Assembly: GCF_000231405.2 (NCBI RefSeq)
Contig: NZ_CP007032.1
Span: 2,170,001-2,234,000, forward strand
From: Desulfitobacterium metallireducens DSM 15288
Lineage (GTDB): Bacteria > Bacillota > Desulfitobacteriia > Desulfitobacteriales > Desulfitobacteriaceae
DNA length: 64,000 nucleotides
Direction: 5' to 3'
Part shown: piece by piece, positions 1,930 to 12,489 of the stretch
Layout of the letters: the number at the start of each line of letters is the position of its first letter
How positions within the stretch are numbered: position 1 is the stretch's first letter
Position numbers and translations under genes: made by a program
Notes under the pieces: model-generated
The model's input: only the letters and a program-made list of their open reading frames with translations
What the model was told of the DNA's origin: nothing
Databases searched by the model: none

Positions 1930-1935
1930 AATTTA

Positions 1936-1966
1936 AACCGCACTGAAAATCAGCGCGGTGCTTTTT
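1936..1966 (-). terminator. Hairpin between the two tRNA-Gly copies
   Basis: ACCGCACTGA / TCAGCGCGGT around three bases (one G-T pair). On the plus strand a T5 run follows; on the minus (tRNA) strand only TTT follows, so read-through into the extra tRNA-Gly at 1856 is plausible. Partial terminator or processing stem. Confidence 0.55.
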
Positions 1967-1971
1967 ATGTA

Positions 1972-2045
1972 TGGAGCGGGTGATGAGAATCGAACTCACA
2001 TAACTAGCTTGGAAGGCTAGCGCTCTACCACTGAGCTACACCCGC
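1972..2045 (-). tRNA. tRNA-Gly(TCC), array A
   Basis: Loop CTTCCAA, anticodon TCC, CCA encoded; identical to 1856-1929 and 3729-3802. Confidence 0.96.
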
Positions 2046-2053
2046 AAGGTGTA

Positions 2054-2130
2054 TGGTAGCAGGGGAGGGATTTGAACCCTCGGATGAGCGGGTATGAACC
2101 ACTTGCCTTAGACCACTTGGCTACCCTGCC
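2054..2130 (-). tRNA. tRNA-Met(CAT), elongator, array A
   Basis: A 77-nt tRNA: acceptor GGCAGGG/CCCTGCT, anticodon stem AGTGG/CCGCT, loop TTCATAC, CCA encoded. The paired first base and the loop TTCATAC fit elongator Met rather than initiator or Ile2. Confidence 0.9.
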
Positions 2131-2131
2131 A

Positions 2132-2206
2132 TGGCTCCCCGAGTAGGACTCGAACCTACAACCTACCGGTTAACAGCCGGTTGCTCCACCATTGAGCTAT
2201 CGAGGA
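2132..2206 (-). tRNA. tRNA-Asn(GTT), array A
   Basis: Acceptor TCCTCGA/TCGGGGA, loop CTGTTAA, anticodon GTT, CCA encoded. Confidence 0.96.
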
Positions 2207-2225
2207 ATATATCAATGTATTTGAC

Positions 2226-2316
2226 TGGCGGAGAAGGAGGGATTCGAACCCTCGCAGCAGTTACCCACTCTAACGGTTTAGCAAACCGTCCTCTTCAACC
2301 TCTTGAGTACTTCTCC
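2226..2316 (-). tRNA. tRNA-Ser(GCT), array A
   Basis: A 91-nt class II tRNA with a long variable arm; acceptor GGAGAAG/CTTCTCC, loop TTGCTAA, anticodon GCT, CCA encoded. Confidence 0.96.
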
Positions 2317-2331
2317 GCAATATTATTTTTT

Positions 2332-2416
2332 TGGTGCGGAAGACGGGACTTGAACCCGTACGGTGTTAACCACACGCCCCTCAAACGTGCGCGTCTGCCA
2401 ATTCCGCCACTCCCGC
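2332..2416 (-). tRNA. tRNA-Leu(GAG), array A
   Basis: An 85-nt class II tRNA; acceptor GCGGGAG, anticodon loop TTGAGGG, anticodon GAG, CCA encoded. Confidence 0.94.
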
Positions 2417-2420
2417 ACTA

Positions 2421-2496
2421 TGGAGCCATTGACCGGGATTGAACCGGTGACCTTATCCTTACCAAGGATACGCTCTACCAACTGAGCTACAACGGC
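2421..2496 (-). tRNA. tRNA-Thr(GGT), array A
   Basis: Anticodon stem TATCC/GGATA, loop TTGGTAA, anticodon GGT, CCA encoded. Confidence 0.96.
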
Positions 2497-2530
2497 AACT
2501 TAACTTTTTAAGGATCAACAAAGTTTTAAA

Positions 2531-2607
2531 TGGTGCGCTCGGAGGGATTCGAACCCCCGGCCTTCTGATTCGTAGTCAGACGCTCTATCCAGCTGAGCCA
2601 CGAGCGC
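2531..2607 (-). tRNA. tRNA-Arg(ACG), array A
   Basis: Acceptor GCGCTCG, anticodon loop CTACGAA, anticodon ACG (A34 normally becomes inosine), CCA encoded. Confidence 0.96.
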
Positions 2608-2616
2608 ATTATTTTT

Positions 2617-2691
2617 TGGAGCGGGTGACGAGATTCGGACTCGCGACTTTCACCTTGGCAAGGTGACACTCTACCACTGAGTTACACCCGC
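2617..2691 (-). tRNA. tRNA-Gly(GCC), array A
   Basis: Anticodon stem TCACC/GGTGA, loop TTGCCAA, anticodon GCC, CCA encoded. Confidence 0.96.
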
Positions 2692-2699
2692 AATAGAAT

Positions 2700-2775
2700 T
2701 GGTGAGCCATCCGCGACTCGAACGCGGGACACCCTGATTAAAAGTCAGGTGCTCTACCGACTGAGCTAATGGCTC
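2700..2775 (-). tRNA. tRNA-Lys(TTT), array A
   Basis: Acceptor GAGCCAT, anticodon loop CTTTTAA, anticodon TTT, CCA encoded. Confidence 0.96.
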
Positions 2776-2781
2776 ATAAAA

Positions 2782-2856
2782 TGGCTGGGGTGGCAGGATT
2801 CGAACCTACGAATGCCAGAGTCAAAGTCTGGTGCCTTACCGCTTGGCGACACCCCA
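2782..2856 (-). tRNA. tRNA-Gln(TTG), array A
   Basis: Acceptor TGGGGTG, anticodon stem CCAGA/TCTGG, loop CTTTGAC, anticodon TTG, CCA encoded. Confidence 0.96.
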
Positions 2857-2902
2857 TCATCATATTTATATCAGTCTTCCTTTTCTGATGACTTGATACC
2901 TT

Positions 2903-2977
<75 letters not shown>

Positions 2978-2985
2978 ATGTTTAG

Positions 2986-3069
2986 TGGTGGGCAGGGATG
3001 GATTCGAACCATCGTACCTTACGGAACAGATTTACAGTCTGCCGCCTTTAACCGCTCGGCCACCTACCC
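2986..3069 (-). tRNA. tRNA-Tyr(GTA), array A
   Basis: An 84-nt class II tRNA with a long variable arm; acceptor GGGTAGG, loop CTGTAAA, anticodon GTA, CCA encoded. Confidence 0.96.
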
Positions 3070-3092
3070 ACGTTTTTCATATGAAATTAAAA

Positions 3093-3169
3093 TGGCGACC
3101 CCGATCGGATTTGAACCGACGATCTCCTGCGTGACAGGCAGGCATGTTAAACCACTACACCACGGGGCC
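3093..3169 (-). tRNA. tRNA-Asp(GTC), array A
   Basis: Acceptor GGCCCCG/CGGGGTC, anticodon stem CCTGC/GCAGG, loop CTGTCAC, anticodon GTC, CCA encoded. Confidence 0.96.
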
Positions 3170-3177
3170 AGTGTATT

Positions 3178-3253
<76 letters not shown>

Positions 3254-3259
3254 GGAATT

Positions 3260-3335
3260 TGGTGACCCGTACGGGATTCGAACCCGTGTAGCCGCCGTGA
3301 AAGGGCGGTGTCTTAAGCCGCTTGACCAACGGGCC
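3260..3335 (-). tRNA. tRNA-Glu(TTC), array A
   Basis: First gene of array A. Anticodon stem CCGCC/GGCGG, loop CTTTCAC, anticodon TTC, CCA encoded. Its 5' base is the right limit of the duplicated block. Confidence 0.96.
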
Positions 3336-3356
3336 ATTTTCGCGAGAACATTTGTT

Positions 3357-3691: not shown

Positions 3692-3692
3692 A

Positions 3693-3723
3693 AACCGCAC
3701 TGAAAATCAGCGCGGTGCTTTTT
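3693..3723 (-). terminator. Hairpin at the 3' end of tRNA array B
   Basis: Same ACCGCACTGA / TCAGCGCGGT stem as at 1936; on the minus strand it is followed by TTTTGTTTTATAG, a better T-run than copy A has, so here it can act as a terminator. Confidence 0.7.
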
Positions 3724-3728
3724 ATGTA

Positions 3729-3802
3729 TGGAGCGGGTGATGAGAATCGAACTCACATAACTAGCTTGGAAGGCTAGCGCTCTACCACTGAGCTACACCC
3801 GC
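3729..3802 (-). tRNA. tRNA-Gly(TCC), array B
   Basis: Identical to 1972-2045; anticodon TCC, CCA encoded. Confidence 0.96.
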
Positions 3803-3810
3803 AAGGTGTA

Positions 3811-3887
3811 TGGTAGCAGGGGAGGGATTTGAACCCTCGGATGAGCGGGTATGAACCACTTGCCTTAGACCACTTGGCTACCCTGCC
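3811..3887 (-). tRNA. tRNA-Met(CAT), elongator, array B
   Basis: Identical to 2054-2130; loop TTCATAC. Confidence 0.9.
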
Positions 3888-3888
3888 A

Positions 3889-3963
3889 TGGCTCCCCGAG
3901 TAGGACTCGAACCTACAACCTACCGGTTAACAGCCGGTTGCTCCACCATTGAGCTATCGAGGA
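3889..3963 (-). tRNA. tRNA-Asn(GTT), array B
   Basis: Identical to 2132-2206; anticodon GTT. Confidence 0.96.
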
Positions 3964-3982
3964 ATATATCAATGTATTTGAC

Positions 3983-4073
3983 TGGCGGAGAAGGAGGGAT
4001 TCGAACCCTCGCAGCAGTTACCCACTCTAACGGTTTAGCAAACCGTCCTCTTCAACCTCTTGAGTACTTCTCC
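3983..4073 (-). tRNA. tRNA-Ser(GCT), array B
   Basis: Identical to 2226-2316; class II, anticodon GCT. Confidence 0.96.
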
Positions 4074-4088
4074 GCAATATTATTTTTT

Positions 4089-4173
4089 TGGTGCGGAAGA
4101 CGGGACTTGAACCCGTACGGTGTTAACCACACGCCCCTCAAACGTGCGCGTCTGCCAATTCCGCCACTCCCGC
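4089..4173 (-). tRNA. tRNA-Leu(GAG), array B
   Basis: Identical to 2332-2416; class II, anticodon GAG. Confidence 0.94.
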
Positions 4174-4177
4174 ACTA

Positions 4178-4253
4178 TGGAGCCATTGACCGGGATTGAA
4201 CCGGTGACCTTATCCTTACCAAGGATACGCTCTACCAACTGAGCTACAACGGC
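4178..4253 (-). tRNA. tRNA-Thr(GGT), array B
   Basis: Identical to 2421-2496; anticodon GGT. Confidence 0.96.
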
Positions 4254-4288
4254 AACTTAACTTTTTTAAGGATCAACAAAGTTTTAAA

Positions 4289-4365
4289 TGGTGCGCTCGG
4301 AGGGATTCGAACCCCCGGCCTTCTGATTCGTAGTCAGACGCTCTATCCAGCTGAGCCACGAGCGC
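4289..4365 (-). tRNA. tRNA-Arg(ACG), array B
   Basis: Identical to 2531-2607; the only gene whose offset between copies is 1758 rather than 1757. Confidence 0.96.
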
Positions 4366-4373
4366 ATATTTTT

Positions 4374-4448
4374 TGGAGCGGGTGACGAGATTCGGACTCG
4401 CGACTTTCACCTTGGCAAGGTGACACTCTACCACTGAGTTACACCCGC
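4374..4448 (-). tRNA. tRNA-Gly(GCC), array B
   Basis: Identical to 2617-2691; anticodon GCC. Confidence 0.96.
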
Positions 4449-4456
4449 AATAGAAT

Positions 4457-4532
4457 TGGTGAGCCATCCGCGACTCGAACGCGGGACACCCTGATTAAAA
4501 GTCAGGTGCTCTACCGACTGAGCTAATGGCTC
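4457..4532 (-). tRNA. tRNA-Lys(TTT), array B
   Basis: Identical to 2700-2775; anticodon TTT. Confidence 0.96.
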
Positions 4533-4538
4533 ATAAAA

Positions 4539-4613
4539 TGGCTGGGGTGGCAGGATTCGAACCTACGAATGCCAGAGTCAAAGTCTGGTGCCTTACCGCT
4601 TGGCGACACCCCA
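4539..4613 (-). tRNA. tRNA-Gln(TTG), array B
   Basis: Identical to 2782-2856; anticodon TTG. Confidence 0.96.
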
Positions 4614-4659
4614 TCATCATATTTATATCAGTCTTCCTTTTCTGATGACTTGATACCTT

Positions 4660-4734
<75 letters not shown>

Positions 4735-4742
4735 ATGTTTAG

Positions 4743-4826
4743 TGGTGGGCAGGGATGGATTCGAACCATCGTACCTTACGGAACAGATTTACAGTCTGCC
4801 GCCTTTAACCGCTCGGCCACCTACCC
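4743..4826 (-). tRNA. tRNA-Tyr(GTA), array B
   Basis: Identical to 2986-3069; class II, anticodon GTA. Confidence 0.96.
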
Positions 4827-4849
4827 ACGTTTTTCATATGAAATTAAAA

Positions 4850-4926
4850 TGGCGACCCCGATCGGATTTGAACCGACGATCTCCTGCGTGACAGGCAGGC
4901 ATGTTAAACCACTACACCACGGGGCC
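4850..4926 (-). tRNA. tRNA-Asp(GTC), array B
   Basis: Identical to 3093-3169; anticodon GTC. Confidence 0.96.
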
Positions 4927-4934
4927 AGTGTATT

Positions 4935-5010
<76 letters not shown>

Positions 5011-5016
5011 GGAATT

Positions 5017-5092
5017 TGGTGACCCGTACGGGATTCGAACCCGTGTAGCCGCCGTGAAAGGGCGGTGTCTTAAGCCGCTTGACCAACGGGCC
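5017..5092 (-). tRNA. tRNA-Glu(TTC), array B
   Basis: Identical to 3260-3335; first gene of array B. Confidence 0.96.
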
Positions 5093-5107
5093 GTTAGCGC
5101 AATAACT

Positions 5108-5818: not shown

Positions 5819-6451
5819 GTGAAGACGTTTCTAGTTAAGTATTTATATTTTTTTAGCGGAATATTTATAACATGTATAGGTAACTATTTTCTAATCAATG
5901 CTCAAAATCTTGGGGTCAGCCCTTGGGATGTTTTTCATCTTGGTATTTCCAAATACTTTCCGTACCTAGGGTTGGGTACAATTGGAATTATAGTTGGACT
6001 GTTAATTCTGATCCCGACTTCTTTTATGGGGATAAAACCGCGAATCGGGACCTTTCTTAATATCTATATCTTCGGACTTATGTTAGACGAACTAATGTCG
6101 AGTCATCTCTTAGAAATACCAACAAGCTACATCTTAAGTCTTGTATATTTGATAATCGGAATTTTAACTACAGGAATCGGAACAGCAGTTTATTTACATA
6201 CCGATGCTGGAGCTGGTCCAAGAGATGCTTTGATGTTAGGTCTTAATCAAAAAACTCATTTAAGTATTGCACAGGTACGCTCAGGAATTGAGATTATGGT
6301 AGTCATCTTAGGCTATATCTTAGGTGGTCCTATAGGAGTTGGCACTCTTATCTTTTCGTTAACCATTGGAATCTCAGTGCAATGGGGTATGAAATGGGTG
6401 AATCAGCTCAAATTTATCATTTCTAACCGACCCGTAGAAGTATCTAAGTAA
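5819..6451 (+). CDS. YczE/YitT-type integral membrane protein
   Basis: A 210-residue hydrophobic protein with about five membrane segments. The N-terminal part (GNYFLINAQNLGVSPWDVFH, about 22-41) and a second similar segment (HTDAGAGPRDALMLGL, about 127-142) look like the duplicated half-motif of the YczE family, whose members are putative transporters of unknown substrate. The start is GTG, with a GGCGAGG ribosome site 6 bp upstream. It is a single-gene unit between stable-RNA loci. Substrate unknown. Confidence 0.75.
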   Translation: MKTFLVKYLYFFSGIFITCIGNYFLINAQNLGVSPWDVFHLGISKYFPYLGLGTIGIIVGLLILIPTSFMGIKPRIGTFLNIYIFGLMLDELMSSHLLEIPTSYILSLVYLIIGILTTGIGTAVYLHTDAGAGPRDALMLGLNQKTHLSIAQVRSGIEIMVVILGYILGGPIGVGTLIFSLTIGISVQWGMKWVNQLKFIISNRPVEVSK

Positions 6452-6745
6452 TAATGACCCCATTATCGTTCAGTCCTCGAAATTAAGATCAAATTTACTT
6501 TCTCTATCCTCATTACTGGAATGTCAAGGAATATGATTTTACTTAAAAAATTTAATTCCTGTCAAGTATAAGTCATTCGATTTTGAACGATAAATTCATA
6601 AGTCGCAGCGTAAACCTCAGGGCAATATACATAACGAATCACCCAAATCTTTTCTTATAAAATAAAGGCTATATTTATTATTTGTAGCTATAAGGCAACT
6701 ATAACTATATTAATATGGTGCTGACTAGTAAAAATATACTATGAC

Positions 6746-6800
6746 TTTTACTGATCAGCCCTATACAATTAGTCAAACTTCCGTGATCGAGTTTCGAAAA
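6746..6800 (-). pseudogene. Decayed 5S rRNA fragment (older copy)
   Basis: On the minus strand, ACTCGATCACGGAAGTTTGA followed by TAGGGCTGATCAGTAAAAGT resembles the central part of the intact 5S gene (CTCGAACACGGAAGTTAAG ... AGGGCCGATGATACTTGG). Only about 55 bp is recognisable. The surrounding 6452-6900 holds nothing else I can name. Confidence 0.5.
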
Positions 6801-6903
6801 AGAAAGATAGTATCTCTTGTTCGTGCAAAAACACATAAATCATAATGGAATACTATCGCCAGTGAGCTGTACGGGTCAAATCGCCCCTAAAGAATCATGC
6901 TAT

Positions 6904-6948
6904 AAAAAGCGGAGAAACCACGTCATTCAACGTAGTCTCTCCGCTTTT
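6904..6948 (-). terminator. Second intrinsic terminator beyond the rRNA operon
   Basis: On the minus strand, an AAAAGCGGAGA / TCTCCGCTTTT stem with a 20-odd-nt loop and a T5 run, just after the 5S-like remnant. It matches the position of the true 5S terminator, as if duplicated with a 5S copy. Confidence 0.75.
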
Positions 6949-6952
6949 GCAT

Positions 6953-7105
6953 ACCTGGCGCCGACCTACTTTCCCAGGTAGGTCGCGCCTCTTAGAATCC
7001 TTCTAGGGCCATGGCGCTGACCGCGAAAACCATTCACTGGATGGTTTTCGCGGTCCAAGTATCATCAGCCCTGGATGGTAACTCGAACTTCCGTGTTCGA
7101 GTTAC
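6953..7105 (-). pseudogene. 5S rRNA-derived remnant with hairpin remodelling
   Basis: On the minus strand, pieces of the neighbouring 5S gene are recognisable in order: CTCGAACACGGAAGTT, CCAGGGCTGATGATACTTGG, GGACCGC, CTGGGAAAGTAGGTCG and GCGCCAGGT. The 5' third of 5S is missing. Each retained piece now lies in a perfect or near-perfect hairpin: GTAACTCGAAC/GTTCGAGTTAC, GACCGCGAAAACCAT/ATGGTTTTCGCGGTC and GACCTAC/GTAGGTC (extended by GGCGC/GCGCC). It cannot fold as normal 5S rRNA. It is either a pseudogene remodelled by inverted duplication or a structured RNA derived from 5S. It is followed by a terminator. Confidence 0.7.
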
Positions 7106-7238
7106 GAAAATGATATGTACTCGATCGTTTTCGACCAAGCTGTACAGCACATAGAATTACTGATCGGCTCAGGCGTACAGGTGGGACTAACCCAAGAAAA
7201 TCATTCATGCTTGTACACGGGGTACGTTTTTACGCAGT

Positions 7239-7281
7239 AAAAAGCAAAGAGACCATCTTACGACAGTCTCTTCACTTTGCT
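7239..7281 (-). terminator. rRNA operon terminator after 5S
   Basis: On the minus strand, AGCAAAG..AGAGAC / GTCTCT..CTTTGCT followed by TTTTTAC immediately after the 3' end of 5S: an intrinsic terminator. Confidence 0.85.
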
Positions 7282-7282
7282 T

Positions 7283-7398
<116 letters not shown>

Positions 7399-7538
7399 AT
7401 CGTTTGAAGTTTTCAGGGCTCTTTTCAGAGCTTTCTGTTCCTTCAAAACTACACAGATCTTTTCGTTTTCTTCAAGTCATCAGTTTCTCTTCACTCCAGT
7501 TTGAGCCCAAGTGAAGTTTACCTTTAGTGTCGTCATTA

Positions 7539-12369
<4,831 letters not shown>

Positions 12370-12489
12370 AATTTATGAAGAAAATTTGATTGCTCAAATT
12401 CATCTCAAACTCTTTAACGAGTCACTTGGCTGTTCCTTGTTGTTTAGTTTTCAAAGACCGCATTTTCTCACTACTATGTGGTAAATCTA

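Follow-up and report, generated by a model that had tools for sequence, protein, structure and literature searches.

Hairpin insertions in a 5S rRNA remnant of Desulfitobacterium metallireducens and their probable origin from mobile double-hairpin elements

The closest described counterparts of the locus analysed here are the 5S rRNA remnants of Stepanov & Fox (2021, RNA 27:133, PMC7812874), who, in the portions of that paper drawn on here, report such remnants from D. metallireducens, D. dichloroeliminans, D. orientis and D. youngiae, regard these units behind rRNA operons as pseudogenes that are probably not transcribed, and point out the resemblance of the inserts to expansion segments. As far as those portions go, the units described below are the same objects, namely hairpin-bearing 5S-like units that lie behind rRNA operons with a terminator before each of them. 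The two accounts part over the nature of the inserts, which the same portions treat as expansion segments possibly moved by recombination or horizontal transfer, and do not present as a mobile family, dispersed and nested, whose ends are fixed and whose insertion follows a target rule. The 5S remnant itself is already known, while the mobile family, termed here double-hairpin (DH) elements, appears to be new; a literature search of partial coverage returned no description of DH-like elements in this bacterial group.

By description, the DHE elements of Allomyces mitochondria and other mitochondrial hairpin repeats (RHE) are similarly short mobile elements with a hairpin fold and no flanking duplications (PMC2800124), although DHE are mitochondrial, whereas DH elements have a bacterial host, favour 5S arrays and remove two to three target bases. 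REPINs and REPs with their RAYT (PMC3116915) are likewise small, non-autonomous hairpin repeats of bacteria, mostly intergenic, present in many copies and probably moved in trans. A REPIN, however, is built from a pair of inverted REPs tagged with GTAG and lies near a RAYT gene, while a DH element joins two different hairpins in tandem, carries no GTAG at its ends and has no RAYT gene beside it in the 15 loci with Y1 transposase genes (Y1 loci) that were examined. The CGTC-tagged REPs, including the Rickettsia palindromic elements (PMC3733652), are also palindromic repeats without a dedicated transposase, and were considered since dispersed DH copies read CGTC at their 3' end; they were rejected because the position of the tag and the hairpin architecture differ, these REPs being single hairpins with stems of 8-9 bp and an unpaired 5' CGTC tag, whereas in DH elements a paired hairpin foot precedes the terminal CGT. 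Firmicutes are, in addition, absent from the phyla listed for CGTC-tagged REPs. Finally, MITEs of the IS200/IS605 type come close in genome G002, where DH modules sit inside about 30 ORF-less repeats of 255 bp with a similar right end, but DH elements lack those ends and are also found without the MITE.

The window, that is, the whole 64-kb stretch of D. metallireducens DNA that was analysed, belongs to a genome of 3.176 Mb in a single contig with eight 5S loci, one of which falls within it. The rRNA operon lies on the minus strand, with the 16S rRNA gene at 10805-12370, the 23S rRNA gene at 7537-10451 and an intact 5S rRNA gene as its last gene at 7283-7399 (Rfam RF00001, 98.1 bits). It is closed by an intrinsic terminator at 7239-7280 (minus strand; AGAGACTGTC GTAA GATGGTCTCT TTGCTTTTT), which was recognised by sequence inspection and forms a strong hairpin in the fold of the whole unit, and which is missing from the list produced by a simple consensus terminator scan. 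Elsewhere in the window, a cluster of 15 tRNAs is duplicated in tandem (1935-3349 and 3692-5106). Its two copies agree at 1409 of 1414 aligned bases, a sign of recent duplication or of gene conversion that is still going on.

Directly behind the intact 5S gene, the stretch 6953-7105 is, judging from sequence comparison, a diverged second copy of the combination of 5S gene and terminator. As the earlier note on this DNA had claimed, pieces of the neighbouring 5S are present in order: a segment from loop C to the 5' strand of helix IV (7050-7103, minus strand; 88% identity to the intact 5S over 7050-7101, E = 1.8e-9) and the 3' end of the gene, CCTGGGAAAGTAGGTCG...GCCAGGTA (6946-6978, minus strand; 94% identity, E = 1.4e-7). 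These are followed by a duplicate of the 5S terminator (6904-6950, minus strand), made of a 19-nt inverted repeat, 89% complementary, and then a T run. The note was also right to place the stretch behind an rRNA operon, and to hold that simple decay does not account for it; the 5S-like core follows a normal 5S gene, the last one of the operon. The unit extends beyond the coordinates given there on both sides, with an inserted module at 7104-7174 and a third, strongly decayed unit at 6717-6794 (minus strand). The latter was recognised by alignment and as part of the direct repeat family D1 (71% identity), and retains remnants of the 5S core and of the module here called module 2; the covariance models R2 and R3 described below give no significant score on it.

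The second unit could be read as a functional gene whose product, a 5S rRNA enlarged by expansion segments, serves in some ribosomes; this would have its precedent in genes with near-identical inserts, including one primary 5S gene of D. dichloroeliminans. Such a function is extremely improbable, as the 5' part that forms helix I/II is barely recognisable in the alignment, helix III has been remade as a new hairpin, the Rfam 5S model (RF00001) has no match in 6400-7282 even at E-values up to 1, and the unit is preceded by an intact 5S gene. The reading favoured here, at a probability of roughly 0.8, is that a non-functional tandem copy of 5S gene and terminator behind the rRNA operon has become a landing site for mobile DH elements.

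The earlier note had described the stretch as a chain of near-perfect hairpins, and three hairpins do occur where it placed them, namely hairpin 1 at 7078-7105 (11 bp; GTAACTCGAAC ACGGAA GTTCGAGTTAC), hairpin 2 at 7019-7055 (15 bp, with a 7-nt loop) and hairpin 3 at 6957-6989 (12 bp with a bulge, loop CTGGGAAA), all read on the minus strand. The RNA fold reaches -75.9 kcal/mol, against -46.0 +/- 4.2 kcal/mol in 200 dinucleotide shuffles (z = -7.1), the DNA fold of the hairpin stretch gives z = -8.4, and this is the only place in the 64-kb window with three perfect hairpins, each of at least 7 bp, inside 153 nt. The proposal that every 5S piece had gained an inverted copy of itself holds for hairpin 1 and fails for the other two. 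Hairpin 1 is a 5S loop turned palindromic: its left arm and loop are 5S sequence, and its right arm reads GTTCGAGTTACCA where the 5S has GTTAAGACC, which makes it complementary to the left arm, including the bases that adjoin module 1. The same altered right arm recurs in two other genera, with GTTCGAGTACC in genome G007 and GTTCGAGAACC in genome G018 replacing the same 5S segment. This hairpin is most simply, and plausibly, explained by one ancestral fold-back template switch, template switching having been documented as an origin of RNA hairpins, rRNA genes included (PMC8794818), and of quasipalindromes in E. coli (PMC7202029).

Hairpins 2 and 3, in contrast, involve an inserted module. According to the fold, the model match and the alignment, hairpin 2 consists of the 3' hairpin belonging to module 2 and of five further outer pairs with 5S GGACCG, and neither its stem core nor its loop is 5S sequence. 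Hairpin 3 pairs the end of module 2 (GGCGCGACC) with downstream 5S sequence (GTAGGTCGGCGCC) in the fold and competes with the module's own stem, at -29.2 kcal/mol for hairpin 3 alone against -26.0 kcal/mol when the module stem is forced. The small TTAGAA/TTCTA stem that had been noted sits within the loop of module 2 itself. The chain is not made of three or four independent inverted duplications of 5S pieces, as had been invoked; the 5S copy is interrupted by two modules of about 70 nt.

Module 1 (7104-7174, minus strand; type A', partly decayed) occupies 5S loop B / helix III, or site 1, and module 2 (6981-7050, plus strand; type B) the helix IV loop, or site 4, where its orientation is opposite to that of the 5S. 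The models were built with the window sequence excluded, R2 (helix IV type) from G016, the genome of Desulfitobacterium dichloroeliminans, alone and R3 (loop B type) from Desulfitobacterium only, and their E-values, taken from short calibrations, are rough. Module 2 is the single R2 match in 64 kb, over the full length and without mispairs (E = 3.2e-5), and it is found by R3 as well (E = 5.9e-5); module 1 is recovered by R3 at E = 0.002 in 64 kb and 4e-5 locally, and the next R3 match after both modules has E = 0.58 in 64 kb. The 5S homology breaks at the boundary of module 2 in the identity search and in the alignment. The unit of D. dichloroeliminans has insertions at loop B / helix III and in the helix IV loop, the same positions as in the window, and the R2 and R3 matches together with these shared positions mark the window inserts as nearly identical to expansion segments of related genomes. 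Both modules have the architecture by which DH elements are recognised, a length of about 60-70 nt with a 5' stem-loop of variable sequence followed by a 3' hairpin on a conserved foot, 5'-CG(A/T)AA...TT(A/T)CG-3', and on the R2 and R3 matches they are assigned to one DH superfamily, in opposite orientations. Their junctions are eroded and the clean ends have been lost in the window; the rule of ATCC...CGT ends is seen in type A and in the locus L259, discussed below.

These matches also bear on the possibility that template switching alone, through repeated fold-back mutations in a 5S pseudogene, made every hairpin in place, as the earlier note had offered. The one switch that fits hairpin 1 makes this the preferred account for that hairpin alone. 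For modules 1 and 2 it is already disfavoured: module 2 is recovered full-length by models from another genus and lies at the matching 5S position there, and switching in place would give neither homologous 70-nt modules at matching and non-matching sites nor copies throughout genomes. With two of the structures best read as mobile double-hairpin insertions, template switching is quite improbable as the origin of the whole chain.

The clearest DH subtype is type A, which has the form ATCCACACTGC-loop-GCAGTGTGG-CGAAANGC-TCRTCC-GCNTTTCGT; type B has the ends AGGC...CGT and differs from ATCC on its 5' side. Searches with the type A model yield 472 copies, spread over 34 of the 46 genomes from the bacterial family, whereas the 37 genomes from elsewhere in the class have none. 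Among 28 distinct type A copies, 99.2% of the pair cells are standard and 34 double changes are found against 7.8 in shuffles, a signal that is lost when the pairing partners are slid. The corresponding figures are 100% paired and 19 double changes against 6.6 for type A', and 96.4% paired and 8 against 2.9 for type B. The earlier note had proposed a selected structured RNA, a functional non-coding transcript made together with the rRNA operon, and had suggested folding the stretch and searching relatives for covariation. The very stable fold, as RNA and as DNA, the recurrence of the right arm of hairpin 1 and of both modules in the units of other genera, and the covariation of the stems across the element family all speak in that direction. 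However, what covaries here are mobile copies spread over many sites, so the signal reports on the DH element, not on the window locus, and no conserved fold with covariation was found at the same locus; the conserved fold of the module in relatives differs from the fold favoured here. The remnant unit is moreover carried by one of the eight operons of the window genome, the other seven 5S loci being without such a unit in the roughly 400 nt read behind each; it lies behind the 5S terminator, and the next copy downstream, the third, is in decay. Scans with Rfam, at gathering and relaxed thresholds, covered the locus and the arrays of relatives and returned rRNA matches only and no known RNA family. 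A selected RNA at this locus is very unlikely on these grounds, and a local RNA from the second unit would probably be without function. The case serves as a warning that mobile hairpins, with no RNA selected at the locus, can give rise to a very stable fold and to strong covariation.

The favoured reading, insertion of mobile DH elements, draws on their distribution and junctions. Related genomes carry the same kind of 5S-like units, often arrayed, and in four complete genomes 46 of 104 type A copies lie at most 2.5 kb from an intact 5S gene, where 0.85 would be expected; the remaining copies in those genomes are dispersed, and the examined ones are intergenic and within mosaics of nested hairpins. 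Type A occupies three different 5S sites, and 41 of 42 interpretable junctions (one further row, L129, having been left out as a spurious match) are alike relative to the intact 5S, with the element taking the place of two to three bases (CC, TC or ACC). In G016, type B is found at two positions of one 5S unit, and elements are nested in the loops of other elements. Not all copies in 5S arrays are independent events, because tandem duplication, gene conversion and vertical descent multiply copies.

An occupied and an empty state of the same site can be compared in G002, whose roughly 30 dispersed copies of the 255-bp repeat carry two DH modules each. In the copy L259, an extra DH element occupies a hairpin loop in which the other copies of the repeat have none: CCAGTG-GA-GAGTATCG becomes CCAGTG-[element]-GAGTATCG, with the ends ATCC...CGT and with TC replaced. 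Together with the type A junctions, this gives the same ends and the same loss of target bases for two subtypes and in two genera. The repeat of about 255 bp itself (L257-L266) ends at GAGTTCACT, with a right end like that of IS200/IS605. Its load of DH modules, and the larger flanks that many dispersed Desulfosporosinus copies have in common, would be expected if DH modules were passengers that travel exclusively within bigger elements, for example IS200/IS605-type MITEs, and through recombination between rRNA operons. This is unlikely, given that the element is found by itself at three 5S sites, within DH loops and in the occupied/empty pair L259/L257, each time with the same ends and the replacement of 2-3 nt.

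The mobile-element reading of the window can be set out as a series of steps. A DH element would insert in either orientation, often into DNA that forms hairpins, be it a surplus 5S copy or a loop within a second DH element, and a clean-ended element (ATCC...CGT) would exchange itself for two to three target bases, often YC. In the window, one element would have entered loop B / helix III in the orientation of the 5S and another the helix IV loop in reverse, while hairpin 1 may have arisen after or before these insertions through a template switch at a local fold-back (quasipalindrome), in which the left arm served as template for the right. Movement probably proceeds through a folded single strand on which an enzyme acts in trans, because the fold rather than a coding sequence is conserved, flanking duplications are absent and the targets are often hairpin-forming. 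Being redundant and located past a terminator, the extra 5S copies would be tolerated. With confidence just short of even, this can be extended to the proposal that the Desulfitobacteriaceae host an undescribed class of mobile DNA, the DH elements, which would have the ends ATCC...CGT, take the place of two to three bases of the target, favour hairpin-forming DNA (5S arrays most of all), lie nested within each other and move on folded single strands, redundant 5S copies serving as nurseries for combinatorial hairpin arrays.

A search for an autonomous partner of the DH elements through Y1_Tnp and reverse-transcriptase gene counts, Y1 loci and carrier genomes found none. Y1_Tnp was considered as the DH transposase and dropped: Y1 transposase genes occur in many of the genomes but are absent from four DH-carrying ones, the type A model (R1) has no match in the 15 Y1 loci examined, and the Y1 gene count does not correlate with copy number (rho 0.18, p 0.24). 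Two Y1 loci inspected for repeats held none related to DH, and reverse-transcriptase gene count is likewise uncorrelated with copy number (rho 0.16, p 0.30). The window genome itself has four equal-scoring RVT_1 genes (G000:C1 597982, 1393126, 1723824 and 1920952), which are probably a multicopy group II intron. In genome G014, the 15 type A copies proximal to 5S genes all run parallel to the replication fork, and of the 51 dispersed ones 43 run against it with a mid-contig terminus, a figure that becomes 44 when the terminus is placed near 2.6 Mb, the position suggested by the GC skew. This orientation bias is suggestive of insertion linked to replication, and it is kept out of the main evidence because it is inseparable from gene orientation or from the duplication of larger blocks.

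A DH family of this kind would explain the origin of the hairpin insertions in the expanded 5S rRNAs and 5S pseudogenes of this bacterial family. Its definition by covariance models, ends and a junction rule makes the movement of bacterial palindromes without a transposase open to test, and organisms with dozens of DH copies offer the testing ground. Within Desulfosporosinus, the loci L126-L132, L058, L063, L064, L070, L075 and L188-L191 are intergenic mosaics of many nested hairpin modules, in which a recurring hairpin, CTCGAACAAGGATGTTCGAG, resembles the loop C hairpin of 5S rRNA. Additionally, from about position 980 of L046 (genome G025), a unit of a 5S array is broken in helix IV by what appears, by eye, to be a reverse-transcriptase coding fragment.
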